From the NCBI RefSeq assembly GCF_900111835.1, contig NZ_FOJP01000018.1, forward strand, positions 62,001 through 126,000: 64,000 nucleotides of DNA, given 5' to 3'. This document shows positions 26,092-40,165 of this stretch, piece after piece (positions within the stretch are counted from its first letter, which is position 1; the number at the start of each line of letters is the position of its first letter). Both the position numbers and the translations under genes were made by a program. The notes below the pieces were generated by a model. That model did no database searches, was not told the origin of the DNA, and saw only the letters and a program-made list of their open reading frames with translations. This DNA is from Metapseudomonas otitidis (GTDB lineage Bacteria; Pseudomonadota; Gammaproteobacteria; Pseudomonadales; Pseudomonadaceae).

Positions 26092-26222
26092 TTGCATGAC
26101 TCCTGCAAGTTTGTAAGGTCCGTGACCGCAGTCGGGCGAAATGATAACAGAGCGCACGAACGTCCCACGTGACAGAGTTTGACAGCGTGTTGCGTTCGGG
26201 TACTATTGCCGCCCGCAAATGC

Positions 26223-26310
26223 GGAAGTGTGGCCGAGTGGTTGAAGGCAGCGGTCTTGAAAACCGCCGATGGGAAACTATCCGTGAGTTCGAATCTCACC
26301 GCTTCCGCCA
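26223..26310 (+). tRNA. tRNA-Ser (anticodon UGA)
   Basis: The 88-nt sequence folds into a class II tRNA. The acceptor stem GGAAGTG pairs with CGCTTCC, the anticodon stem GCGGT/ACCGC encloses TGA, there is a long variable arm, the T-loop is GTTCGAATC, and CCA is encoded. It decodes UCA. A tyrosine integrase gene lies just downstream pointing toward it, so its 3' end is the likely attachment site of the following element. Confidence 0.97.
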
Positions 26311-26315
26311 TATTC

Positions 26316-26344
26316 AAAGCCCTGATTTATCAGGGCTTTTTCAT
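26316..26344 (+). terminator. Terminator after tRNA-Ser
   Basis: A 10-bp stem AAAGCCCTGA/TCAGGGCTTT (26316-26325 with 26330-26339) has a TTTA loop and is followed by a T run, directly behind the tRNA. Confidence 0.9.
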
Positions 26345-26374
26345 TTTCTGGCACCGGCTGACGGTTGCCGGCAG

Positions 26375-26432
26375 GCTGTGAGAATCGGGGCGAGTCCCAG
26401 AATAAATGGGGTGCAGTCCCAAAACTCACAGC
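26375..26432. repeat. Repeats between tRNA-Ser and integrase, possible integrase arm sites
   Basis: Two similar copies, GGGGCGAGTCCCA (26387-26399) and GGGGTGCAGTCCCA (26408-26421), lie between 8-bp perfect inverted repeats GCTGTGAG (26375-26382) and CTCACAGC (26425-26432). Their place beside the integrase gene and the presumed attachment site suggests arm-type integrase or excisionase binding sites. That role is inferred from position only. Confidence 0.4.
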
Positions 26433-27481
26433 TATTTCGCCGGCTTGGCGATCGCTCCTCGCCTGACGTAGACGGTCTTCGTGATCTCCTCTTCAGTGTG
26501 TCCCAGGAGACGGCTGGCCTCCTTCAGGTCGTTGATTTCGGTCGCAGCCTTCGGCCTGATGTCCTTGAACTGGAATTCACGGATCAGCGCCCCCAGCTCC
26601 GGGTCACCGGCCTCGATCGCGGCCTTCTGAGCTGCCTCCCGTGCTGCCTCCCACCGGTCCCGCAGCATGCTCGGGCTGACGTGCCGCCCTCTGTCGCTGA
26701 GGATCAGGTACGGGCTGCCGAAGCCTTCATTGCGCGCCAGGATGCGGGCCACCAGCACGCCCAGACTTGTCAGCACCCCGTCGATCTTCATCAATACGCG
26801 CACCTTGTGGCCCGTCTTCCCTTGCTTGACCTCGAAGTAGTCGCCGTCGATGTCGGTTTTCCGCATCATGATGACGTCTGCCGGGCGCTGTCCGGTGAGA
26901 TAGGCAAGGTCCATTGCGTCCCGAAGCTCGGGAACAGCCCTGGCATACACCGCATCCCACACCGTGTCCTTGGCGTAGTAGTCGCGAGGCTTCTCCCTGT
27001 TCTTACGCACCCCACGGCACGGGTTCTCCTTCGTCGTGAGCCCCCATTCCCGGGCGATGTTGAACACATGCGAAAGCGTCGCGATCTCCCTGTTGGCGCG
27101 GACTTTTGCTGACCGGCCGTCTCGGTACTGGGCGATCATCGCTGGGGTAAGCGCGTCGATCGGAGCCTCATCGAATACGATCCGGAGCTGCTTGATCTCC
27201 TTCTTGTTGTCCTCCTGGGTGCGGGGCGCCTTCTTCGGCACGATGTCCCGGAGGTAGCGATCGAAGATCGCGCCCATGATGCGTAGATCCTTGGGCTTCT
27301 CGGTGGCCTCGAACTCGGCCCACTTGATGCGGGCCATGTCCAGGTCGTTGCCGAGAAACACGTCTTTGCCGTCTGAGCCGCGGTAGTAGTAGGCGACCCA
27401 GACGTCTCCATTCTTCCGCTTGCGCCGCCGGACATAGAGGTTCGGCGGCAGCTTGCGGTTCTCTCTGTTGCGGGGGCGCAT
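26432..27481 (-). CDS. int: Phage-type tyrosine integrase
   Basis: The 349-residue protein has a lambda-type N-terminal arm-binding region (RRRKRKNGDVWVAYYYRGSDG), a core-binding SAM-like domain at about 65-150, and a C-terminal catalytic domain. The first catalytic Arg is in LTGQRPADVIMM, the second box reads FKDIRPKAATEI (the usual HxLR is modified to DIRPK), then LLGHTEEE and the nucleophile Tyr in KTVYVRRG. It should recombine attP with the tRNA-Ser gene 120 bases away. It starts one base after the stop of the DUF4224 gene. It looks intact; the changed second box deserves comparison with relatives. Confidence 0.92.
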   Translation of the reverse strand: MRPRNRENRKLPPNLYVRRRKRKNGDVWVAYYYRGSDGKDVFLGNDLDMARIKWAEFEATEKPKDLRIMGAIFDRYLRDIVPKKAPRTQEDNKKEIKQLRIVFDEAPIDALTPAMIAQYRDGRSAKVRANREIATLSHVFNIAREWGLTTKENPCRGVRKNREKPRDYYAKDTVWDAVYARAVPELRDAMDLAYLTGQRPADVIMMRKTDIDGDYFEVKQGKTGHKVRVLMKIDGVLTSLGVLVARILARNEGFGSPYLILSDRGRHVSPSMLRDRWEAAREAAQKAAIEAGDPELGALIREFQFKDIRPKAATEINDLKEASRLLGHTEEEITKTVYVRRGAIAKPAK

Positions 27482-28754: not shown

Positions 28755-28778
28755 GAAAAAACCCGGCCTTAGCCGGGT
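28755..28778 (-). terminator. Terminator of the AT-rich three-gene operon
   Basis: A 7-bp GC stem ACCCGGC/GCCGGGT (28761-28767 with 28772-28778) with a 4-nt loop is followed on the minus strand by TTTTTT. It lies just after the last gene of the cargo operon, isolating it from the phage genes downstream. Confidence 0.8.
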
Positions 28779-28799
28779 CTTGAATGCAATGGCAAACAG

Positions 28800-29312
28800 T
28801 TACTTACGCAATCCACGCAAGTCAACTATTGACCTATAGCGCTCTAAGATAAATGTTGAAATTACATCGTGTAACTGGAGTGTTGATTTGTTAAGAAGCA
28901 GAACTTTCTTCTGCCTGAGATGTGGATCAAGCTCTGAACTCCTTTCAGAATCAAGCGTAGCGAAACTCCTAATCTTGCCAATAAGTTCCACCGCTTCATT
29001 CTTGAAATTGTCTGCATTTGCGTCGAAGAAGACCCTGTTACTGCACTTTTCATGCAGCGCGGCAATTCGTATTTCAATCATGTTGCAACGGAAATTGATA
29101 AAGGCATGAAAGAGCTGGCATTTCATGACATGCTCTTCCGATTCGGAATCTGCATCGCGCCAGAATTTGTAATTCTCGTCTGAAATGTCCTGCAGAAGTT
29201 TATCAACAGCAGTCACGATGCCGTTCGCTTCTGATTGTCTAGCGAGAAGGCGCGAATTTAAATAGGTAAATGCCCACCCAGCCATTGCGAGCCAGAACGG
29301 TACTGACAACAT
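28800..29312 (-). CDS. Membrane-anchored hypothetical protein, third gene of cargo operon
   Basis: The 170-residue protein starts MLSVPFWLAMAGWAFTYLNS, a single hydrophobic N-terminal helix, followed by a mostly helical soluble part with RLLARQSEANGIVTAVDKLLQ and a basic end (YRSIVDLRGLRK). I do not recognise the family. It probably sits in the inner membrane with its body in the cytoplasm. It lies 17 bases after the DUF4325 gene and before the terminator at 28755. The DNA is visibly AT-rich compared with its surroundings, like the two genes before it, which indicates separate acquisition. By analogy with other small membrane proteins in phage-defence operons it could be an effector; this is conjecture. 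Confidence 0.65.
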   Translation of the reverse strand: MLSVPFWLAMAGWAFTYLNSRLLARQSEANGIVTAVDKLLQDISDENYKFWRDADSESEEHVMKCQLFHAFINFRCNMIEIRIAALHEKCSNRVFFDANADNFKNEAVELIGKIRSFATLDSERSSELDPHLRQKKVLLLNKSTLQLHDVISTFILERYRSIVDLRGLRK

Positions 29313-29329
29313 ATTCGTTCCCTGAATAT

Positions 29330-29659
29330 TTATTGTTCTACTGGTTTGGCGTCCAGGATATATTTCTTGATTGTGTTAACGACACTTTCATATTTATATA
29401 CAATTTCAATTCTATGTAAGACTTCCTCGGTGCTGAATCCTTCGTACATGATTAGTCCCGCAAATGCCTCGTCACCGAAGGATGATCCGCATCCCAGTGT
29501 TTTGTTTAAGTCGACTCTAACTTTGTCGTATTCCTTTAGATATTTAAGCAGAAGACTCTTTCTGAACGCTTCGCCGTTGAATTTTCCATCTTTGGAATTT
29601 CTACCATATGGCATGTCGGAGAATTCTTCTGCTACATCTAAGGTGTAAATGCTAGTCAT
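29330..29659 (-). CDS. STAS-like (DUF4325) protein, second gene of cargo operon
   Basis: The 109-residue protein begins MTSIYTLDVAEEFSDMPYGR and has the DUF4325 pattern: GKFNGEAFRKSLLLKYL, then a strand-turn DKVRVDLNKTLGCGSSFGDEAFAGLI, then a C-terminal helix. DUF4325 proteins resemble the STAS fold of anti-anti-sigma factors and often accompany GHKL ATPases. The ATG at 29659 overlaps the stop of the ATPase gene by four bases (ATGA), so the two proteins should be made in fixed ratio and may bind each other. AT-rich DNA. Confidence 0.75.
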   Translation of the reverse strand: MTSIYTLDVAEEFSDMPYGRNSKDGKFNGEAFRKSLLLKYLKEYDKVRVDLNKTLGCGSSFGDEAFAGLIMYEGFSTEEVLHRIEIVYKYESVVNTIKKYILDAKPVEQ

Positions 29660-30723
29660 GATGATGACCCGAGTTTTAAGTTCCACTGTATTAGCGTCCC
29701 CATCATCGGAGACGGCAGCAGCTCAAGCAGTTCTGGCTTGCCTGCCTTGAATTCGTAAGATCCAGACCCGCTATAGATCAGCATAGTTCCGTCGGGATTC
29801 GCTGCGACAAAATCTTTTGCTTCGGCTAGGCCCTTTCCTCTACCGCCTTTCTTGAATCTAGAGTTCCCGTATTCAACTGCAGCTCTGATAGCGAGTCCGT
29901 CATTTGCCCCAGACCAACCCAGTTTGGTAAGTAATTCAGCAATCAACTCACCATACCAAGGCTTTTTGGATAACGTTACCGGGATGCCCACTCCTGAGTC
30001 ATAGACTGCAATAAAGAGCTGGGTGCCAATTTTCTCAACGGCGACCCACCAGTTTTTATCGTCGTCAGATGGCGGGTCGCTGTAAAATGCATCGTCATAT
30101 GCATGCTGCCAAACGTTGCTGCAAGACTCAGTAATCGCTGCAAATGCTTTTACTCCCTCTTCGCCATTCATGCCGGACTCCAGGATAGAGTTCTGCACGT
30201 ATTCGATAACTCGGCGCAATTGACTTGTATCCCCAGCCTCTTTGTCTTTGTAAGAGGTTGAGCAAATTTCAAGGTTGCCGCTTATTTTGAAATTACGCCT
30301 TGATCTAGATTCTTGGGTTAGGCTCCAGAATCCAAATCGATAAAAGATTGCCGAAATAAACTGAGTCTTACAGTCGATTGTTTTGACATGACTCTTGCCG
30401 TAGCGAATCTGAAGTCGTTCTACTACCGCGTAGAAGATAAGCATCGCCGCAGCTTTGACTTCCGATACTTGCGAAAGATCAATTACGACTTTTGATTTGG
30501 CTGCTGCCATTTTCAAAGTCCTAATGAAATCAAAGAAGGCTTTGTAGTCTTTGTGTGCAAAAAAAGAAATAATTGGAGGCGCAATAATTTTCTGTCTACC
30601 CAGAACCCTGACTGCATGGGCAGGCTTGTTTGGGTTGAATTTTCGAGATGAGCGGCTTGCCGCTAACGCCCTTTTGCTGGCGATACGATAATAGATATCG
30701 TCTTTTAAAGTCCTGCGCCTCAT
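29656..30723 (-). CDS. STAS-HATPase (GHKL) fusion protein, first gene of cargo operon
   Basis: The 355-residue protein has three parts. Residues 1-50 are basic. Residues 55-150 look STAS-like (KVVIDLSQVSEVKAAAMLIF followed by helices). Residues 165-350 form a GHKL-type ATPase with an N box ITESCSNVWQHAY, G1 box VYDSGVGIP and G2 box GGRGKGLAEA, ending in GTLIQWNL. The ATP-binding residues are all present, so it should bind ATP. There is no histidine for phosphotransfer or sensor domain; the closest general analogy is an anti-sigma-factor kinase of the SpoIIAB/RsbW kind fused to its own STAS partner. It overlaps the DUF4325 gene. AT-rich, with its own promoter at 30758. Confidence 0.8.
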   Translation of the reverse strand: MRRRTLKDDIYYRIASKRALAASRSSRKFNPNKPAHAVRVLGRQKIIAPPIISFFAHKDYKAFFDFIRTLKMAAAKSKVVIDLSQVSEVKAAAMLIFYAVVERLQIRYGKSHVKTIDCKTQFISAIFYRFGFWSLTQESRSRRNFKISGNLEICSTSYKDKEAGDTSQLRRVIEYVQNSILESGMNGEEGVKAFAAITESCSNVWQHAYDDAFYSDPPSDDDKNWWVAVEKIGTQLFIAVYDSGVGIPVTLSKKPWYGELIAELLTKLGWSGANDGLAIRAAVEYGNSRFKKGGRGKGLAEAKDFVAANPDGTMLIYSGSGSYEFKAGKPELLELLPSPMMGTLIQWNLKLGSSS

Positions 30724-30757
30724 CGTATCCCTGAATCACTGCACGCAACGAAACTAA

Positions 30758-30766
30758 ATTATGCCA
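30758..30766 (-). promoter_or_regulatory. Extended -10 promoter of the cargo operon
   Basis: On the minus strand TGG-CATAAT (an extended -10 element, TGnCATAAT) ends about 35 bases upstream of the ATG at 30723. No good -35 hexamer is visible, which is common for extended -10 promoters. Transcription would start near 30751. Confidence 0.45.
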
Positions 30767-31139
30767 TCGAATACCACGCTGGGATATCGCTGGCGGCGCT
30801 CCCGGCTCTAGGGCGGCCGGTAGTGCTTTGGGGGCGCCTTAGTCGTTGGGGCAGTCCATGCAGTTCTGGTAGCGGGCGCGGTGCGGGAAATAGTGGATCG
30901 GACGGATCATGTCTCACTCCGAAAAGAGGTCCGGCCCCGGGCGTTTCGGCCCGGCGCAGCGGAAGGCCGTGGGTTGGGAAGAAGCTATGGCGCGCCGCCA
31001 GCCAGCCCTTGTAGGACCAGCCGGATCGCTTGACCCACGGGTAGCTGTCGTCGATGGCCTTGGCGATCGCCTGGGCGTCCAGTTCGTCTGCCAGGGCCTG
31101 CTGGTGCATGTGCTGCCAGGCTCTGTCGTACCAGCTCAC
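30759..31139 (-). CDS. Hypothetical phage protein, probably frameshifted at its end
   Basis: The open frame starts with GTG at 31139, overlapping the methyltransferase stop (GTGA), and reads MSWYDRAWQHMHQQALADEL, with a compact N-terminal domain up to ...SFFPTHGLPLRR. After about residue 65 it becomes Pro/Arg-rich and runs antisensically through the start of the next small gene into the promoter at 30758, which is unlikely for a real protein. In the neighbouring frame the DNA reads RPGPDLFSE and stops at 30914-30916, just before a ribosome-binding site. A one-base indel near 30960 would restore a protein of about 75 residues. Function unknown. Confidence 0.5.
   Translation of the reverse strand: MSWYDRAWQHMHQQALADELDAQAIAKAIDDSYPWVKRSGWSYKGWLAARHSFFPTHGLPLRRAETPGAGPLFGVRHDPSDPLFPAPRPLPELHGLPQRLRRPQSTTGRPRAGSAASDIPAWYSMA
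30839..30910 (-). CDS. Small 23-residue CxxC protein
   Basis: The ATG at 30910 is preceded by GGAGTG at good spacing (six bases). The 23-residue product, MIRPIHYFPHRARYQNCMDC plus PND, ends in a CxxC pair and is aromatic-rich. Its start lies four bases after the stop that would end the preceding gene in the corrected frame. Size is too small for firm support, but signals and composition favour a real phage small protein. Confidence 0.45.
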   Translation of the reverse strand: MIRPIHYFPHRARYQNCMDCPND

Positions 31140-33052
31140 AGCGACGAGTCCTGCGGCGCAACGCTCAGCCCCACGGCCACCGGCCGCACCCAGATCGGCA
31201 TGCTGCTGAGCATGAACGTCTCGCCCAGCTCGGCCAGCAGCAGGGTGGTGCCCATGACATGGGCGATTGCCTCGGCTGCCGCCGGCGGTACGGCGTTGCC
31301 GATGCGCTCGCGCCAGTCGCTGTCGCTGAGCCCGTCCAGCTCCAACTGCTCTTCAGGGTCCACCAGGCTCTGCAGGGCGGCCAGTTCCAGCGTTGTGAAA
31401 GGGCGGTGCCAGGTGCCGTCGAGCGACTGGATGATGCAGGTCAGGCGCTCGTCCGCCGCCGGCATGCGCGGGTCGGCGACGCTCCAGCGGCCGTTGTCGC
31501 AGCGCGCGCTGGCGGAGACAGCGCCGGCCGACTGGTCGAAGCCAACCACACCGTAGTGGCCACCTGTGAGGTAGGCATCCCCCTTGGTGCGATGCAGCGC
31601 ACGCGGGTCAGCAATTGACAGCGCGCCGCTGGCCACCTGCTGGGAGCCGGTGACGGTACCGGCGGTGCCAGTCCACGGCACCACGTTCAGCTTCCGGCTC
31701 GACGCGCCGGGGTGCCAGTTGTGGTACCGGGGGTCGGCCACTGCCTGACCGCCCGAGCTGGGGCCGTGTCCGCTGGTGACCGTGCCGGCGTGCTGGTCCA
31801 TGCTGACGACGCGGAAAACGTTGTTGTGTCGCACCCCGGTCGGGCGTGGATCTGCGACAGCGAACGCACCCTGACCGGTTGTGCTGGCCGCGATGACGGT
31901 GCCGGCGTGGTCGTTCCACTCGGTGACCGGGTACTTCCCGAAGCTCTGGCCGCGCGGGTCGGCCACCGCGAACTTCCCTTGCCCTGGCGACTTCTGCCCG
32001 GTGATGGTGCCGGAGGTCTCGCGCCAGTCCAGAACGCCGTACTGCTGGCCGTAGTTCCAGCGGGCCGACGCCTCGTAGCGCGGATCTGCAACGGAAAACG
32101 CCCCATTGGTAGGGCTGCTGCGGCCGGCGATGGTGCCCATGCTGTCATCCCAGCCGTGCACGCCCATGTAGCCACTGCGGTAGGCCGGCACGATCACCAG
32201 GTCGCGCAGGTAGCCATCCTCGATCGCTAGCTCGTTGAGGCTGCGCCAGTCGCTGCCGGCGCGCACCAGGGCGAGGCGCACCCAGGTCTTCCACTGGAGC
32301 GACGGAACCCGGTGCATCGGCCCGGCGGCCTCGATGTCCCCCGCCAGGGGCATGCGGCCGAGGATGTCGCCCACGGCGCGTAGGCTCTTCTTCTCCGGCT
32401 CGTAGAGGAAGGGCGGGACCTTCTCGACGTGGCGTGCCACCAGCAGGAACCTTTTCCGGGACTGCGCCAGGCCGCCCAGCTCGCCGCAGTCGTGGGTGGT
32501 CTCGGCCACGGCATAGCCGAAGCCGCCCAGCAGGCTGTTGATCTGGTCCAGCAGGTGCCGGCCACGGGTGGCCAGGCGCGGGACGTTCTCGAACACGATC
32601 AGCGGCACTGGGTCATCCGCCCAGGCCTCGCCCATCAGCCAGATGCAGCGCAGGGTCAGCTCGTTGAGAGCCTGGTACTTCGGCGTCAGGCTCATCTTCT
32701 CCGACAGCAGCCCGCTGGCACCCTTGCAGGGGCTGGAGATGAACACCGCGTCAGGCCGGCGGCCACGCGCTGCGCGGCGGATGTCGTCAGGCGTCGCTTC
32801 ACACCAGCCGGGCGGCGGCTCCTTCCCGTGGAACCGCACGTACTGGTCGCGGGTGAAGAGATCCATCAGAGTCCCCTGCACGCCAGCCAGGCGCTCGAAG
32901 TCGCGCAGGCCGGCGGGGTCAACGTCGATACCGCCCAGGCATTCCCAATTTGCCTGCAGGTTGCCCACGACGGGCTTGGCGCGGTTGAACCCTTTGGCGC
33001 CGCCGCCCAGGCCGCAGCAGAAGTGGAAGTGGTAGAGGGTGCGCTTGATCAT
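31136..33052 (-). CDS. Phage DNA (cytosine-5) methyltransferase with internal repeats
   Basis: The 638-residue protein has the C5-methyltransferase motifs: I (FHFCCGLGGGAKGF), IV with the catalytic Cys (VFISSPCKGASGLL), VI (IVFENVPRL), VIII-like QSRKRFLLVARHVE, IX (RPFTTLELAALQSL) and X (RIGNAVPPAAAEAIAHVM). Between VIII and IX it carries six copies of a ~36-45-residue unit ending in ADPR. Ordinary enzymes are 330-450 residues, so the repeat block explains the excess. It should methylate phage or host DNA to protect the element. Target is unknown. It overlaps the upstream PAPS-reductase-like gene (ATGA) and the downstream gene (GTGA). Confidence 0.88.
   Translation of the reverse strand: MIKRTLYHFHFCCGLGGGAKGFNRAKPVVGNLQANWECLGGIDVDPAGLRDFERLAGVQGTLMDLFTRDQYVRFHGKEPPPGWCEATPDDIRRAARGRRPDAVFISSPCKGASGLLSEKMSLTPKYQALNELTLRCIWLMGEAWADDPVPLIVFENVPRLATRGRHLLDQINSLLGGFGYAVAETTHDCGELGGLAQSRKRFLLVARHVEKVPPFLYEPEKKSLRAVGDILGRMPLAGDIEAAGPMHRVPSLQWKTWVRLALVRAGSDWRSLNELAIEDGYLRDLVIVPAYRSGYMGVHGWDDSMGTIAGRSSPTNGAFSVADPRYEASARWNYGQQYGVLDWRETSGTITGQKSPGQGKFAVADPRGQSFGKYPVTEWNDHAGTVIAASTTGQGAFAVADPRPTGVRHNNVFRVVSMDQHAGTVTSGHGPSSGGQAVADPRYHNWHPGASSRKLNVVPWTGTAGTVTGSQQVASGALSIADPRALHRTKGDAYLTGGHYGVVGFDQSAGAVSASARCDNGRWSVADPRMPAADERLTCIIQSLDGTWHRPFTTLELAALQSLVDPEEQLELDGLSDSDWRERIGNAVPPAAAEAIAHVMGTTLLLAELGETFMLSSMPIWVRPVAVGLSVAPQDSSL
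31466..32190 (-). repeat. Six protein-level repeats in the methyltransferase (ADPR units)
   Basis: The ADPR tetrapeptide codons lie at 32078, 31952, 31844, 31727, 31601 and 31466 (left ends), i.e. spacings of 42, 36, 39, 42 and 45 residues. Each unit contains a short [SA]GT[IV] segment about 17-20 residues before ADPR (five copies GTI/GTV or MGTI, the last GAV), then Gly/Ser-rich residues and [FWLQ]x[VI]ADPR. The DNA copies have diverged, so these are old duplications kept at protein level. Confidence 0.85.
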
Positions 33053-33891: not shown

Positions 33892-34000
33892 GCGGCGGGT
33901 TCCTTATTTGAGGCACGGCAACGCCGCACCGTAGTGGCGCTTTGAAATGAAGTGGGGTAGGTTCGGTTCGCCCGGCCTGTTGCCGATTCAAGGAGTAGGA

Positions 34001-34696
34001 ATGAGTCGATTACTTTCGATGATAGGTATTGTTATTAGTTTGCTGTACTTGGGATTTGCCTATTGGCTGATAGGAGATCGGCTGCCTCAGCTTCAAACAA
34101 TGGAGTTAAATGCTCTTGGTGATTTTTTTGCCGGAATTTTTGGGCCGCTCGCAATTCTATGGTTGATTTTAGGATTTTTTCAGCAAGGTGTGGAATTGAA
34201 GCAGGGTACTAAGGCTCTTTTGTTGCAGGCAGAAGAACTGAGAAATTCAGTTGAACAGCAAGCGATCATGGCATCGGCAGCCACGCAGCAAATACAGGCG
34301 CAGATGCGTGCTGTAGAGATTCAGGAAGAAGCTCGGAAGAAAGCTATTTCGCCTTCTTTTTCGTTCGAGACTGGAAATCGATGGCAATCGACTGAAGGAA
34401 TTATTAATACACAAACAGTTCTTGCTAATCGTGGGCATGTGGTTTGGGATGTCCGTTTAAAGCTAAGTCCAAGCATTGGAGGGGTAAGCGAGATTTCTAG
34501 GCCTAAGCTAGATAAGGATGAGGGTATTGTTATGGATTTCGTATATCAAAGGCCTGATGTGGATATATTTGGTGAGTGTGAGGTTTCTTATGTTCGAAGA
34601 GATTCTGAGGCTTGCAATGAAAGATTCATTTTTGTGATTCAAGCAACTAACCAATCTGTTTTTTTCGAGAGGCCAGCCCCTACAGCTAACATCTAG
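34001..34696 (+). CDS. AT-rich orphan membrane/coiled-coil protein
   Basis: The 231-residue protein is the only plus-strand gene in the element. AAGGAG lies 5-9 bases before the ATG at 34001. Two membrane helices occupy about residues 6-25 and 40-60 (SMIGIVISLLYLGFAYWLIG; FFAGIFGPLAILWLILGFF). A coiled coil (residues 68-115, QGVELKQGTKALLLQAEEL...) and a beta-rich C-terminal domain follow. I do not recognise the family. DNA is visibly AT-rich against its neighbours, pointing to separate acquisition, as is common for superinfection-exclusion or defence genes. Such a role is not shown by any motif. Confidence 0.75.
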   Translation: MSRLLSMIGIVISLLYLGFAYWLIGDRLPQLQTMELNALGDFFAGIFGPLAILWLILGFFQQGVELKQGTKALLLQAEELRNSVEQQAIMASAATQQIQAQMRAVEIQEEARKKAISPSFSFETGNRWQSTEGIINTQTVLANRGHVVWDVRLKLSPSIGGVSEISRPKLDKDEGIVMDFVYQRPDVDIFGECEVSYVRRDSEACNERFIFVIQATNQSVFFERPAPTANI

Positions 34697-34698
34697 CT

Positions 34699-34735
34699 GA
34701 TAGGGCTGTCCCAAGCTCTATCTCGCTGTTTTTTT
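34699..34735 (+). terminator. Putative terminator of the orphan membrane gene
   Basis: A 9-bp stem with one G-T pair, GATAGGGCT (34699-34707) with AGCTCTATC (34714-34722), is followed after 6 bases by seven T residues. It overlaps the end of the small minus-strand gene. Confidence 0.55.
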
Positions 34736-34834
34736 CACCTGACCGATATTGAATAGATGCTCACCTCCGATCCGGTAGGGTTGCTGTTGTTCTTTTTTGA
34801 AGAATTTCCCAAGCCGCACTGGGCGGCCGGGCAT
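34718..34834 (-). CDS. Small basic hypothetical protein
   Basis: The 38-residue product MPGRPVRLGKFFKKEQQQPY...NIGQVKKTAR starts 17 bases after the end of the truncated ATPase gene and is translated in the same direction. It is basic and has no recognised domain. A longer open frame extends upstream but is only an antisense-like shadow of the ATPase. Evidence is its plausible composition and position only. Confidence 0.35.
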   Translation of the reverse strand: MPGRPVRLGKFFKKEQQQPYRIGGEHLFNIGQVKKTAR

Positions 34835-34851
34835 GGGGCGGGGGGAGGGTG

Positions 34852-36000
34852 TTACGCGGCCTGGCTGGCGTTGGGCGTGCCGATGACGCCGTTTTCGATC
34901 CAGTGGACGGCGATCGTCTGCGGCAGCTTGGGCGGTTCCTTCAACGTGCCGCAGACGATCACTGTGTCGATGGTCTCCAGCTTCGCCAGCTCCATCAGCA
35001 TGCGGATCAGCTGGGTACGTGACGGCAGATCCAGCACGTCGAACCGGTCCAGCATGACCAGGCGCAGTTCGGACAGCTGGGCGATGGCCAGGGCGACTAC
35101 GGCGTCGACGCGCCAGCGCTCCGACTCGGACAGCAGGCCGTAGGCCCGGCTGCCGTAGGTCAGCACCATGTCGTTTGTGATCGCCACGGGCTGCCAGCGT
35201 GCCAGGCGGGCGGCCACGGCCATGGAGTCGTTGAACGGTGCCAGCGCCTCGGCCAGCAGGGCGGCGGGGATGCCGCTGGGCGCCAGGGCCTCGCCGATCT
35301 GCAGCCATTGGGTGATGTCGGCATGGTGCGCGGCGGCCTTGGCGATTACCTCATCGCGTTCGGCCAGGGCGCGGGATACGTCCGCCAGGGCCTCCACCTT
35401 TGCGCGCAGGCCGTCACGCTGCTGGCGCAGCTCGTTGATCGTCTGTTCAGCCACGGCCAGGGCGTCCTGGCCAACCTCGTGGCCAAGGGCGGCCTTGAGT
35501 TCCTTGATCTGCAGGACCGCCTGCTGCGATTCGGTGAGGTCGCGGTGGCTGTTGTCGACGGCGCGCTGCGCGCTCTCCAGATAGCCGCGGTACTCCTCGA
35601 CGCGGGCAGCGGCGGCAGGATCTCCCGGGCGATGGCGCTGCAGCTTGCCGTCCACCAGGATCAGCGACTCGTCGCAGCACGGGCAGACCAGGGCGCTCAA
35701 TGCACCGGCGGCCGCTTCTGCATCGCGCAGCTTCTCGGACCACTCCTGCAGGCGCTTCCGATCCTCTGCCAGTTTCTGCTCGCGGCGGGCGGCCAGGCCG
35801 GCTACCGATACCAGCTCGGCGGCCCGGGCCTGGCGCTGCTCGTTGGCGGCGATGGTGGCGCGGTGGCCGCCCAGCGCTTCCTGGGCGTCGGCCAGGTCCT
35901 GCTCCACCTGGGCCAGCTCCGCGTCGTCGACTCGCTGCGCCGGCCACCGGGTCGCGGTGCCGGTCGCCGTCGGCGCGGGGGCCAGGTGAGGCTGACTTGG
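34852..36000 (-). pseudogene. Truncated SMC/Rad50-like phage ATPase (C-terminal half)
   Basis: The frame encodes long coiled-coil segments around a CPCC zinc-hook-like motif (LSALVCPCCDESLILVDGK), then the second ATPase lobe. The ABC-type signature region is LLSESERWRVDAVVALA and Walker B is LRLVMLDRFDVLDLPSR. The N-terminal lobe with Walker A is missing, so it cannot form a normal ATPase. It has no proper start: the frame is open from the TGA at 36001-36003, which is the stop codon of the small gene upstream, in the same frame. A 7-bp inverted repeat GGCTGAC/GTCAGCC (35990-36006) sits at the junction. A deletion that removed the N-terminal half is the simplest explanation. Confidence 0.75.
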
Positions 36001-36249
36001 TCAGCCTGTCGGGTGATTTTTCGCCTCGTTCTGAGCGGCCTCGTAGAGCCGGGCTGCATCTTCGGCGAGGTACTCCAGGCAGGCGAATGCGCCGCCCAGC
36101 AGTTCGGGGGATGGCGTGCCGTGGTCGGGAATGTTGGACAGGAAGCCGAGCATGCCGAGCAAGGCGCGTTGGCGCACATAGGCTGCTTCGTAGAGGGTCA
36201 GGTGATGGAGATCGTTTTTGTAGAGCGAACTGAGTTTTGCAGAAGTCAT
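36001..36249 (-). CDS. Small hypothetical protein downstream of structured leader
   Basis: The 82-residue protein starts MTSAKLSSLYKNDLHHLTLY and is helical, with no recognised motif. It follows a strong promoter and a structured 210-nt leader. A weak resemblance to small Pseudomonas DUF3077-type proteins may exist, but I cannot confirm it. Its stop codon is the only thing separating it from the truncated ATPase frame, so its own C-terminus may be native or altered by the deletion. Confidence 0.55.
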   Translation of the reverse strand: MTSAKLSSLYKNDLHHLTLYEAAYVRQRALLGMLGFLSNIPDHGTPSPELLGGAFACLEYLAEDAARLYEAAQNEAKNHPTG

Positions 36250-36465
36250 AGTTGTTCTCGATGGGTCGACTGACCGCCTCCTGACGCCAATCAGGGTGGA
36301 GCGGGCCATGCAGGTTGGCGTAACCGTCGAGAACGAACGGTGCATCCGAAGATGCCCTGCACGGCACGCCCCATAACGCGGGTGCAACCATGCAAGGTGC
36401 CTGAACAACGTTCATGCACCTGTCCTCGTTCGGGACGCCAATCCCGACTGCCCAGGTTGGGCAGC
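36250..36465 (-). ncRNA. Structured leader RNA, possibly C4-like antisense RNA
   Basis: The transcript starting near 36465 on the minus strand begins at once with hairpins: TGCCCA/TGGGCA (36449-36463), CGGGA/TCCCG (36431-36446), GGTGC-A-TGAAC/GTTCA-G-GCACC (36396-36420), and GCATC/GATGC with a TTCG loop (36342-36355). Four local stems in 125 nt is far more than a normal leader. In phages P1, P4 and relatives, small structured C4/CI RNAs lie ahead of immunity and cell-division-inhibitor genes; this arrangement is similar. The match to that family is my inference, not shown by sequence identity. The leader also has an open frame starting MNVVQAPCMVAPALWGVPC. Confidence 0.45.
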
Positions 36466-36471
36466 GCGGCA

Positions 36472-36500
36472 ACGTTAGGGCGTGGGGAAGGGGGTGTCAA
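36472..36500 (-). promoter_or_regulatory. Strong sigma-70 promoter of the leader RNA
   Basis: On the minus strand a perfect -35 TTGACA (36495-36500) is separated by 17 bases from TAACGT (36472-36477) as -10. The predicted start near 36465 falls at the first hairpin of the leader. Confidence 0.75.
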
Positions 36501-36517
36501 TCGGCAGTGGCTCGGGT

Positions 36518-36844
36518 CTATCGGGGCGTTGCGGGTTTTCTTTCATGCGTCGATGACGTAGTTCTCGATGTGCTTCCAGCCCTTTCAGTTACTGCGTCCT
36601 GGCTTTTCGGTGGCGTTCTCCAGGCTGCGGCTCCACCAGTACCGTGCGGCGCTGACGCTTGCCGGCTGGGCACTGCTGGCTCTTTTGTGGCTGCGCTTCC
36701 AGTGGCTTTGCTCTGCTTTTCGGCGGTCGTGATTTTGGGGGCGCCGTTGGTCTCTTTATTTCCTAAAGCGTGATGGCATTGCGATAGGCGATTTCTGTAC
36801 CTGGCGCTTCGGCAGTTTCCGGTCTGCCCGTAGCCGGTCGTCAA
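36518..36844 (-). CDS. Doubtful ORF, possible Ash/Icd-like remnant
   Basis: A 108-residue open frame, rich in Ala, Thr, Pro and Arg, lies upstream of the leader-RNA promoter. A stretch such as APHGTGGAAAWRTPPKSQDA is reminiscent of short proteins found beside phage immunity regions, but I cannot name it. No convincing ribosome-binding site. It may be non-coding. The rest of 36845-37104 holds no gene; a near-perfect palindrome CGCCCTGTCAGGGCG lies at 36856-36870. Confidence 0.25.
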   Translation of the reverse strand: MTTGYGQTGNCRSARYRNRLSQCHHALGNKETNGAPKITTAEKQSKATGSAATKEPAVPSRQASAPHGTGGAAAWRTPPKSQDAVTERAGSTSRTTSSTHERKPATPR

Positions 36845-37104
36845 GGCGCCTGACTCGCCCTGTCAGGGCGTCCTACGCTGAAGTTCCAGAGGCGATTTTC
36901 CCTTGGGTGAGGACGCCCGCTGCGGCGGACTCCTCCGGTGGTGATAGGCGGACTCGATTGTCAGTCCTTGCTGCTTATGTTTTCCTGGCGCTTGTGATTT
37001 GACGGTGGCGGTCGCGCTAGGTCTGAGCGCTCCGACTTGCTAATGTATCGGCCTTTCCATGTGACGCTCCCCAGTTTGGCGGGCGGTGCACTGCGAGGTG
37101 TCGC

Positions 37105-37749
37105 TTGATTAGGGTACTGGTGGTCGATGACCACGATCTGGTTAGAACAGGCATCAGCCGCATGCTCTCGGACATCGATGGGCTGCAGGTGGTGGGGCAG
37201 GCCGAGAGCGGCGAGGAAGCGCTGAAGAAGGCGCGCGAGCTCAAGCCCGACGTGGTGCTGATGGATGTGAAGATGCCCGGCATCGGCGGTCTCGAAGCGA
37301 CCCGCAAGCTGCTGCGCAGCTACCCCGATCTGAAGGTGGTGGCGGTGACGGTGTGCGAAGAGGATCCGTTTCCGACCCGGCTGCTGCAGGCCGGTGCGGC
37401 GGGCTACCTCACCAAGGGCGCTGCGCTTGAAGAGATGGTCCAGGCGATTCGCCAGGTCTTCGCCGGGCAGCGCTATATCTGTCCGCAGATCGCCCAGCAG
37501 TTGGCGCTGAAGTCCTTCCAGCCGCAGACGAGTGGTTCGCCGTTCGACCTGTTGTCGGAGCGGGAAATCCAGATCGCGCTGATGATCGCCAACTGCCAGA
37601 AGGTCCAGACCATTTCCGACAAGCTGTGCCTGTCGCCGAAGACGGTGAACACGTACCGCTACCGGATCTTCGACAAGCTCTCCATCTCCAGCGATGTCGA
37701 GCTGGCTCTGCTGGCGGTTCGCCACGGCATGGTGGACGCCGTCAGCTGA
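37105..37749 (+). CDS. gacA: Global response regulator GacA
   Basis: The 214-residue LuxR/FixJ-type regulator begins (TTG)[19 protein letters not shown]. The phospho-acceptor Asp is in [13 protein letters not shown] (residue 54) and a C-terminal HTH runs from [13 protein letters not shown] to [20 protein letters not shown]. GacA, phosphorylated by GacS, turns on the small RNAs RsmY/RsmZ that sequester CsrA/RsmA proteins; a CsrA gene lies at 43681. The start codon is TTG with GAGG eight bases before it; there is no ATG that keeps the conserved N-terminus. It overlaps uvrC by one base (TGATG), as usual. Confidence 0.96.
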
Positions 37750-39572
37750 TGCAACCCACATTCGATGCAAGTGATTTTCTTGCCGCCTGCAGTGGGCGTC
37801 CGGGGGTTTACCGGATGTTCGACGAGGGCGGCAAGCTGCTTTATGTCGGCAAGGCCAAGAACCTCAAGAAGCGCCTCGCCAGCTACTTCCGCAAGACCGG
37901 TCTGGCGCCCAAGACGGCTGCCCTGGTGGCCCGCATCGCGCAGGTCGAGACCACCATCACCGCCAACGAGACGGAAGCGCTGCTGCTGGAGCAGACGCTC
38001 ATCAAGGAATGGCGGCCGCCTTACAACATCCTGCTGCGGGACGATAAGTCCTATCCATATGTGCACCTCTCCGATGGCGAGTTCCCGCGGCTGAGCATCC
38101 ATCGCGGGGCGAAGAAGCAGAAGGGGCGCTACTTCGGGCCTTACCCCAGTGCGGGGGCCATCCGTGAAAGCCTGAACCTGCTGCAGAAGGCGTTCCTCGT
38201 GCGCCAGTGCGAGGACAGCTACTTCCGCAACCGCACCCGGCCATGCCTGCAATACCAGATCAAGCGCTGCAAGGGGCCGTGTGTCGGCCTGGTGGAGGCG
38301 AACGAGTACGCCGAGGACGTGCGCCACTCCGTGATGTTCCTGGAAGGGCGGAGCAATGCCCTGGCGGCCGAGCTGACCAGCAGCATGGAGCAGGCGGCGA
38401 TGAACCTGGAGTTCGAGCGGGCTGCCGAGTTGCGCGACCAGGTGTCGATGCTGCGGCGCGTGCAGGACCAGCAGAGCATCGAGGGGGGCACTGGCGACGT
38501 CGATGTGGTTGCCGCCATCGTCAACCCGGGTGGGGCCTGTGTGCACCTCATCAGTGTCCGGGGTGGGCGCGTGCTGGGCAGCAAGAATTTCTTCCCCCAG
38601 GTGGCGATCGAGGAAGAGGTGGGGGACGTGCTGGTGGCCTTCATTGCGCAGTACTACCTGGGCAGCCATGAACGCGATCTGCCGCAGGAGCTGATCGTCA
38701 ATACCGTCCACGAGGATTTCCCGACGCTGATCGAAGCCATTGCCGAGTCGCGTGGGCGTGAACTCAGCATCAGCCACCGGGTACGGACCAACCGCGCTCG
38801 CTGGCAGCAACTGGCAGTCACCAACGCCGAGCAGGCCCTTGCAGCGCGCTTGGCCAACCGCCAGCACATGGCGGACAAGTTCGAAGCGCTCGGCGAGGTG
38901 CTCGGCCTGGCCGAGCCGCCGCAGCGGCTGGAGTGCTACGACATCAGCCATTCCAGCGGTGAGGCGACCGTGGCGTCCTGCGTGGTGTTTGGCCCGGAAG
39001 GGGCGCTCAAGTCCGACTACCGCCGCTACAACATCGAGGGCGTGACCGCCGGCGACGACTATGCGGCGATGCACCAGGCGCTGACCCGACGCTTCAGCAA
39101 GTTGAAGGATGGAGAGGGCAAGTTGCCGGACGTGCTGCTGGTGGACGGCGGCAAAGGCCAGCTGGCCATGGCGCGGGAGGTGTTGCAGGAGCTGGCAGTG
39201 CCGGAACTCATCCTGCTCGGCGTGGCCAAGGGCGTGACCCGCAAGCCGGGCTTCGAGACGCTTTACCTCAATGGCCCGGAGAACGAGTTCACCCTGCCGG
39301 CCGACGCGCCTGCGCTGCACCTGATCCAGCAGATTCGCGACGAGGCACACCGCTTTGCCATCACCGGCCACCGTGCACGACGCGGCAAGGCCCGTCGGAC
39401 CTCCAGCCTGGAAGAGGTGGCGGGAGTAGGGCCGAAGCGTCGGCGCGAGCTGCTCAAGCATTTCGGTGGGTTGCAGGAATTGAGCCGCGCCAGTATCGAG
39501 GAGATCGCCAAGGCGCCTGGCATCAGCAAAAAGCTCGCCGAGTCGATTTATGCGGCCCTGCACAGCGAGTAG
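37749..39572 (+). CDS. uvrC: Excinuclease ABC subunit C
   Basis: The 607-residue protein has an N-terminal GIY-YIG nuclease domain ([20 protein letters not shown]), the UvrB-binding UVR motif near 200-235, the C-terminal RNase-H-like nuclease ([32 protein letters not shown]), and tandem helix-hairpin-helix motifs at the end ([21 protein letters not shown]). It makes both incisions in nucleotide-excision repair. The ATG at 37749 shares a base with the gacA stop. Confidence 0.97.
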
Positions 39573-39604
39573 AATGCCCCCTCTTTTTCGGTCTTGCTGT
39601 GACG

Positions 39605-40165
39605 ATGAATATTCCAAACCTGCTCACCGTTCTGCGTGTTCTGCTGATTCCCGTCTTCATCCTGCTGTTCTATCTTCCGTTTTCGGGGAGCCACATGGCC
39701 GCAAGCGCGGTGTTCGCCATCGCGGCGGTCACCGACTGGTTCGATGGCTACCTGGCGCGTCGCTGGGAGCAGAGCACCCCGTTCGGGGCCTTCCTCGACC
39801 CGGTGGCGGACAAGCTGATGGTGGCGGTGGCGCTGGTGCTGCTGGTCGAGGAACACCACACGCTGTGGCTGACCTTGCCGGCGGCCATCATCATCGGTCG
39901 CGAGATCGTGGTCTCGGCGCTGCGGGAATGGATGGCGGAGCTGGGCGCGCGTGCCCAGGTCGCGGTCTCCAACCTCGGCAAGTGGAAGACGGCGGCGCAG
40001 ATGCTGGCGCTGGTCATCCTGCTGGCCAATCCGCCGGTGGTGAGCTTCTGGGTGGTGCTCGGCTTCCTGCTGCTGATCATCGCCGCCGCGCTGACGCTGT
40101 GGTCGATGCTGCATTACCTGCTGGCCGCCTGGCCGCACCTGAGCACCGAGCCGAAAGATAAATAA
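39605..40165 (+). CDS. pgsA: CDP-diacylglycerol-glycerol-3-phosphate 3-phosphatidyltransferase
   Basis: The 186-residue inner-membrane enzyme has the CDP-alcohol phosphatidyltransferase motif D-G-x2-A-R-x8-G-x3-D-x3-D, read as [24 protein letters not shown] (D at about 47). It makes phosphatidylglycerophosphate for phosphatidylglycerol. Four to five membrane helices are visible. The ATG at 39605 is preferred over a GTG two codons earlier. It follows uvrC by 32 bases. Confidence 0.96.

Follow-up and report, generated by a model that had tools for sequence, protein, structure and literature searches.

The closest described system to the locus presented in this study is vapKSC, an operon encoding the STAS-GHKL kinase VapK, the STAS antitoxin VapS and the PIN nuclease VapC (Chambers et al., EMBO J, June 2026; PMC13373217). 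The operon protects against one phage by about 2 logs, and the S48E substitution in VapS causes loss of both VapC binding and VapC neutralisation. VapK resembles the kinase CapK, which responds to DNA damage; activity was shown for CapK, VapK being insoluble, and the aromatic residue contacting ssDNA is F54 in VapK and W68 in CapK (PMC13373217).

Here, we describe a related three-gene set (the trio) in a 64,000-nucleotide stretch of Metapseudomonas otitidis DNA, referred to as the window. Positions 28800-30766 hold three intact, co-oriented minus-strand ORFs, an ATPase gene followed by a DUF4325 gene and a third gene (Table 1). The start of the DUF4325 gene lies within the stop of the ATPase gene (ATGA), and AGGGA precedes the ATG of the third gene. 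The GC content of the block is 0.441, compared to 0.660 in the flanking prophage genes. The operon ends in a terminator with a 10-bp stem and a U-run (-18.2 kcal/mol, z -2.8), which is absent from the list of a consensus scanner. The preliminary description had read the block as three minus-strand genes, AT-rich, with a terminator of its own and in the cargo position of a phage remnant, and all of this agrees with what we found. Its promoter held up in part: the extended -10 TGGCATAAT is where it had been placed (30766-30758, minus strand). However, no -35 is visible ahead of the element, and the region has about as many promoter-like sites as chance predicts (3 against 2.9 expected), the extended -10 not being one of them, so the trio promoter must be regarded as unproven.

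The surroundings include an integrase and a DUF4224 gene next to a tRNA-Ser gene, and a phage methyltransferase gene upstream of the trio. Two other neighbouring genes resemble those for PAPS reductase and SbcC. The trio is near an integrase, with no adjoining repressor. No phage structural gene was recognised among nine neighbours scanned with Pfam (seven also with PHROGs), and therefore the element is taken for a prophage remnant. No direct repeat of at least 14 identical bases was found between 26221-26430 and 34001-40000. A P. otitidis phage has a methyltransferase 94% identical to the one in the window. The genome contains a second copy of the latter (86% identical), with no trio in the surrounding 18.5 kb.

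Table 1. Features of the trio and its surroundings, in window coordinates.
Feature	Position	Strand	Basis or remark
Gene 1, degenerate STAS domain plus GHKL kinase-type ATPase, VapK-like	29656..30723	-	355 aa, basic N-terminal helix
Gene 2, DUF4325 STAS-like, VapS-like, proposed antitoxin/kinase substrate	29330..29659	-	109 aa
Gene 3, predicted N-terminally membrane-anchored helical bundle, proposed effector	28800..29312	-	170 aa
N box E199...N203...H207 of gene 1	30103..30129	-	56-sequence alignment
G1 box DSGVG (D242-G246) of gene 1	29986..30000	-	D242, G244 invariant
G2 box GKG (G296-G298) of gene 1	29830..29838	-	G296, G298 invariant
Ser59-Ser60 codons of gene 2, candidate phospho-acceptors	29480..29485	-	conservation in 105 DUF4325 sequences
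Rho-independent terminator of the trio operon	28755..28781	-	folding energy
Putative promoter, extended -10 like TGGCATAAT	30758..30766	-	sequence; not above chance
Tyrosine integrase of the prophage remnant	26432..27481	-	PF00589 E 4.6e-11
tRNA-Ser(tga), likely integration site	26223..26310	+	adjoins integrase
Phage C5 cytosine methyltransferase, upstream of the trio	31136..33052	-	

The protein encoded by gene 1 matches phrog_3364 (E 2.8e-58), and its STAS half (E 0.073) and HATPase half (E 0.011 and 0.024) both fall under the Pfam cut-offs. The predicted structure (pLDDT 89.1, pTM 0.85) supports a GHKL fold in the second half, and profile comparison with a VapK-like protein supports the assignment of both halves. 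The GHKL fold carries the N, G1 and G2 motifs of anti-sigma-type serine kinases: residues E199/N203 (N box), D242-x-G244 (G1) and G296-x-G298 (G2) are invariant in 56 of 56 aligned ATPases, namely that of the window and 55 of the 76 viral ones described below. A WW pair preceding G1 (residues 225-226) is equally invariant in this alignment. An STAS-GHKL fusion with intact N, G1 and G2 boxes, as originally described, is thus consistent with motifs, predicted structure and profile comparison alike.

Gene 2 encodes a DUF4325 protein (PF14213, "STAS-like" in Pfam), the identity first given to it; this is the sole Pfam match, with E 6.4e-9 and 35.8 bits against a gathering cut-off of 23. In a set of 105 distinct DUF4325 sequences, including that of the window and one VapS-like protein, 103 carry Ser60 and 84 have Ser or Thr at position 59; no sequence lacks Ser or Thr at both positions. 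The exceptions at position 60 are the VapS-like protein and the protein of genome G599, where a DUF4325 gene and a membrane gene have no kinase gene in the upstream kilobase and the ATPase profile has no match in the genome. An orphan DUF4325 protein of a viral locus (L169), with neither ATPase nor third gene, retains Ser60.

Gene 3 belongs to no Pfam family; residues 6-59 of its product match PHROG 30059 (E 2.7e-5). A model built with 61 sequences (pLDDT 91.2, pTM 0.84) predicts a helix of 50 residues (3-52) followed by further helices in a bundle. Fold comparisons returned generic helical bundles and matched no other solved fold, and no PIN domain appears among the 8 families listed in a Pfam scan of 61 third proteins. 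Among 84 third proteins, all of them members found by profile, the N-terminal hydrophobic segment reaches at least 1.3 in 76 and 1.6 in 61 (17-residue Kyte-Doolittle mean); the segment of the window protein, at 1.29, is moderately hydrophobic and one of the 8 below 1.3. Net charge is higher after the segment than before it in 81 of the 84, which suggests a cytoplasmic C-terminal domain. The earlier reading of a membrane-anchored helical protein is therefore retained as a predicted N-terminal anchor, moderately hydrophobic in the window copy, plus a helical bundle.

How closely does the trio resemble vapKSC? A stretch of VapS led us to a Deinococcus plasmid operon, behind an HTH gene, annotated as kinase, STAS-like and PIN genes; its first protein matches STAS (E 5.5e-5), its second DUF4325 (E 1.5e-14) and its third PIN (E 1.6e-8). 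The trio ATPase profile aligned with this VapK-like kinase by hhalign over 251 columns (97-381) covering both domains (probability 96.3, E 1.8e-9), and a smaller ATPase alignment gave a probability of 96.6. Since a histidine kinase used as control scored nearly as high (probability 94.3, E 1e-7) over 130 columns (156-319) that leave the STAS core uncovered, the distinction lies in the extra STAS coverage and not in the score alone. The trio DUF4325 protein aligned with the VapS-like protein with probability 84.8 and E 6.6e-6. In a profile search of the PDB with DUF4325, VapS (E 0.15) and an STAS protein (E 0.23) were non-significant, and two unrelated aminotransferase chains ranked higher (0.13). 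In these weak profile matches the VapS phosphosite aligns with Ser59, and the near-invariant Ser60 follows one residue later.

The likeness extends to the order of co-oriented genes (kinase, STAS protein, putative effector), to the STAS and GHKL domains of the first protein, to a DUF4325/STAS second protein with a conserved, possibly equivalent hydroxyl residue, and to mobile carriage, one vapKSC-like operon being located on a plasmid. The differences concern the third protein, a predicted membrane-anchored all-helical bundle and not a PIN nuclease; the invariant WW pair, which the Deinococcus kinase lacks at the aligned position; the one-residue displacement of the near-invariant serine from the aligned phosphosite; and the putative ssDNA-contacting aromatic. 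The column aligned to W53 of the Deinococcus kinase, which we infer to be the equivalent of VapK F54, is aromatic in only 4 of 56 trio ATPases, and because it is not conserved the trigger of the trio may differ from the ssDNA contact of CapK and VapK. From these sequence comparisons we conclude that the first two genes of the trio are homologous to the vapKSC pair and that the third is not VapC.

Other kinase/STAS systems are more distant. CapK/CapS shares with the trio an STAS-GHKL kinase with an STAS partner gene directly behind it (PMC13373217). In contrast to that pair, the trio kinase has no HTH and its 109-aa partner no wHTH above any cut-off, so that by domain content the partner is not a transcriptional repressor. 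The trio operon differs from SpoIIAB/SpoIIAA and RsbW/RsbV in having no sigma factor gene, an extra STAS domain on the kinase and a membrane protein as third member. Single-chain wHTH-GHKL-DUF4325 proteins, apparently of Gammaproteobacteria, combine a GHKL ATPase and DUF4325 in one product. They differ in carrying a winged HTH, in having no separate partner and in showing, by eye, Ala at the Ser60 position in five sequences (GQAFADE); their GHKL alignment to the trio ATPase is weak (probability 11.5, E 0.0026). The likeness to partner-switching modules proposed in the preliminary description is thus borne out for the first two proteins by their VapK-like and VapS-like homology. Its statement that no described system has exactly this set stands for the third gene within the literature searched and no longer holds for the kinase/STAS pair, given vapKSC. 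No paper naming or describing the trio was found by title or opening lines of the abstract in a search that most subscription journals lie outside, and the retrieved passages that mention DUF4325 describe no function for it.

The trio is a real, conserved and mobile unit found in phages, prophages and plasmids. In the Pseudomonadaceae, the ATPase was present in 13 of 298 genomes (one copy being broken), and in 13 of 13 it was followed by DUF4325 and then by a third gene. In a sample of the class, the ATPase profile matched in 17 of 369 genomes. Apart from the genome of the window, six strong matches have all three genes, the third with E 3.6e-20 to 8.6e-4 against a profile trained without those six. 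Four deeper matches consist of ATPase and DUF4325, two of them with a membrane-type third ORF by position, one without and one decayed, and the remaining six look like ordinary GHKL proteins. When the same 369 genomes were scanned with the third protein only, 7 of 8 matches, including that of the window, adjoined a DUF4325 gene, the exception being G396. A sample of the phylum yielded 9 of 398 genomes passing E 1e-8; among six previously unseen loci, DUF4325 was present in six and the third gene, by profile, in four.

The largest set came from viral sequences. A single DUF4325 motif was used to scan 2.9 million contigs, and the best 80 of 177 relatives were analysed. The ATPase was found in 76 of these 80 and the third gene, by profile, in 67, in the same order: 64 loci have all three genes, 12 are without a third-gene match, 3 are without the ATPase only (there the trio lies at a contig end) and 1 has DUF4325 alone. 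Eleven of the 12 loci without a third-gene match were read for ORFs (all but L124); in ten, an ORF of 101-179 aa whose N-terminus is hydrophobic occupies the right place, and one is at a contig edge. Three loci in the set of 80 duplicate ones used to train the profiles, and the remaining 77 contain 73 ATPases, 64 third genes and 61 complete trios. At 90% identity the 80 loci form 72 clusters, 58 of them with all three genes.

Searches with tblastn matched 5 of 72,556 plasmid records and 1 of 50,697 phage records. DUF4325 lies behind the ATPase in all six, and in one of them an insertion sequence interrupts the ATPase; the third gene is annotated in five and is an unannotated ORF in the sixth. 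Genes of the MazE/MazF type are annotated beside one copy. Two more phage searches with other members returned the same single phage record, and the trio is therefore broad but sparse, with matches both inside and outside the class of the host. The gene table of Francisella phage KIRK lists in a row CI, a protein 23% identical to one of Marinobacter phage AS1, a DUF4325 protein and a TM protein, without comment on the set in the accessible part of that paper (PMC7924643). Correlated divergence of the trio genes could partly reflect joint inheritance. That the three genes might not co-occur in other genomes had been raised beforehand, and the family, class, viral and phylum scans all showed that they do.

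Placement of the trio was studied in 50 of the 53 viral records over 20 kb. A Peptidase_S24 match was present in 37 and absent from 13. In 10 of the 37 the distance from this match to the trio is at most 500 bp, always on the same strand, compared to 3.05 expected, a count reached in 1 of 5000 random placements; within 1.5 kb the figure is 14 of 37, again all on the same strand. Clustering at 90% identity reduces the 37 records to 35 and the 10 close ones to 9. Of 65 loci, 10 have a Peptidase_S24 gene as the first gene upstream. Proximity to integrases was not significant: 5 of 36 records place the trio within 500 bp of one, against 2.22 expected, and 331 of 5000 random placements gave at least that count. 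Among immediate neighbours, the 65 upstream genes matched 20 PADLOC models and the 67 downstream genes 7 (E<=1e-6), each model being matched by one gene, and by name they represent about five kinds upstream and four downstream. In PADLOC 2.0.0 itself, no family matched any of the three trio proteins at E<=1. Phages, prophages and plasmids carry the trio, and its immediate neighbours are seldom PADLOC genes.

We consider it probable that the trio is a mobile kinase/antitoxin/effector operon resembling vapKSC, with a membrane-anchored effector in the place of VapC, that serves prophage-borne defence. For the proposal of the preliminary description that the kinase/STAS pair gates the third protein, vapKSC, which was not cited there, is a close precedent (PMC13373217). 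In the resting state, the DUF4325 protein would bind the third protein and keep it inactive. Infection or another stress would activate the STAS-GHKL kinase, which would phosphorylate Ser60, or perhaps Ser59, of the DUF4325 protein, close to where its second STAS helix begins. Phosphorylation would release the membrane protein, which would then damage or arrest the cell, or block the invader at the membrane, so that a superinfecting phage fails.

The repressor-adjoining copies bear on two other explanations. Exclusion genes of the lambda type are expressed from a lysogenic promoter. The trio could similarly act in superinfection exclusion without killing, its membrane protein blocking related phages at DNA entry or receptor function and its kinase/STAS pair only tuning that protein. 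The same-strand CI-like repressor adjoining the trio in some relatives (the 10 of 37 above) fits this proposal, as do the copies beside repressors in a Pasteurella prophage (L003), in Marinobacter phage AS1 and, by its gene table, in Francisella phage KIRK (PMC7924643), and the small size and predicted N-terminal anchor of the third protein. We nevertheless judge it unlikely: a kinase switch of three genes is more machinery than a constitutive exclusion protein would seem to need, vapKSC acts by toxin release, and plasmids carry the trio too. Adjoining repressors, together with the response of CapK to DNA damage (PMC13373217), could equally point to a regulatory module of the phage itself, in which the pair senses host damage and sets the timing of induction or lysis through the membrane protein. 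This fits poorly with a distribution over diverse phages, plasmids and a remnant without recognised structural genes, with rarity in the phage collection (the single record in 50,697), and with the absence of any above-cut-off DNA-binding domain from the three proteins, where a stray sub-threshold LysR match in protein 1 (E 0.008) was all that appeared; we give it little credence. Just as improbable, in our view, is an addiction (toxin-antitoxin) module that stabilises its own element and affects phages incidentally. Its three-part logic would be that of vapKSC, and plasmid occurrence, with the MazE/MazF-type genes beside one copy, would suit it, but kinase-regulated antitoxins require a signal to act.

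Beyond the kinase-gated defence operon that we favour, a wider proposal can be put forward tentatively, as somewhat less than an even bet. The trio may represent a broad, unnamed class of prophage and plasmid immune systems whose membrane-acting helical effector is kept under control by a GHKL kinase together with a DUF4325 antitoxin. In such a class the phospho-serine would be shifted by one residue and the trigger would be other than the ssDNA contact of CapK and VapK, perhaps sensed by the basic helix at the N-terminus together with the invariant WW pair. In some phages it would be expressed with the repressor to exclude competitors.

If these readings are correct, the kinase/STAS-antitoxin switch reported in 2026 is a modular chassis, so far known with a nuclease effector, of which mobile elements carry a second, membrane-acting version. 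A role would also be suggested for DUF4325 proteins that stand alone and for PHROG families 3364 and 30059, neither of which has a listed function. The trio may thus be a previously unrecognised way in which a prophage protects its host cell, and it would offer a test of host protection by prophages through kinase-gated membrane effectors.

DUF4325 is present in 54 of the 369 sampled genomes of the host's class and, among the matches listed, many lie in frames of about 340–360 aa. Single chains of about 350 aa that join a wHTH, a GHKL and a DUF4325 domain are frequent in this class (for example at loci L078, L080, L081 and L106), their domain make-up having been checked with Pfam for two. On the Deinococcus plasmid (L188), a gene for a helix-turn-helix regulator stands directly in front of the vapKSC-like operon.

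Coordinates of the trio-related and prophage features
Feature	Location	Strand	Remark
AT-rich gene	window 33947-34696	+	249-aa protein, PHROG 9267 match
SbcC-like ATPase gene	window 34852-35907	-	partial PHROG profile match
Kinase/DUF4325/PIN operon	L188 2476-4828		Deinococcus plasmid
Complete trio	L185 1595-3324	-	viral contig
Second set, distinct from that trio: DUF4325 gene and third gene	L185 501-1345	+	viral contig
DUF4325 and membrane gene without kinase gene	L073 1318-2415		genome G599

Besides the trio, the prophage remnant of the window holds a second AT-rich gene, a candidate for further cargo. Its product has hydrophobic stretches at the N-terminus, belongs to a PHROG family without known function and gave no match in a Pfam scan. 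The SbcC-like gene, which covers only part of its profile, lies close to the right end of the remnant. On viral contig L185, the two genes of the second set are convergent with the complete trio, and the ATPase of that set would lie beyond the contig start.

In genome G599, no kinase gene was found within the kilobase upstream of the DUF4325 and membrane genes, and a search of the genome with the ATPase profile gave no match. Its DUF4325 protein carries alanine at the position of Ser60, the near-invariant serine and candidate phospho-acceptor of the trio protein. This single natural case hints that the serine matters only together with the kinase.
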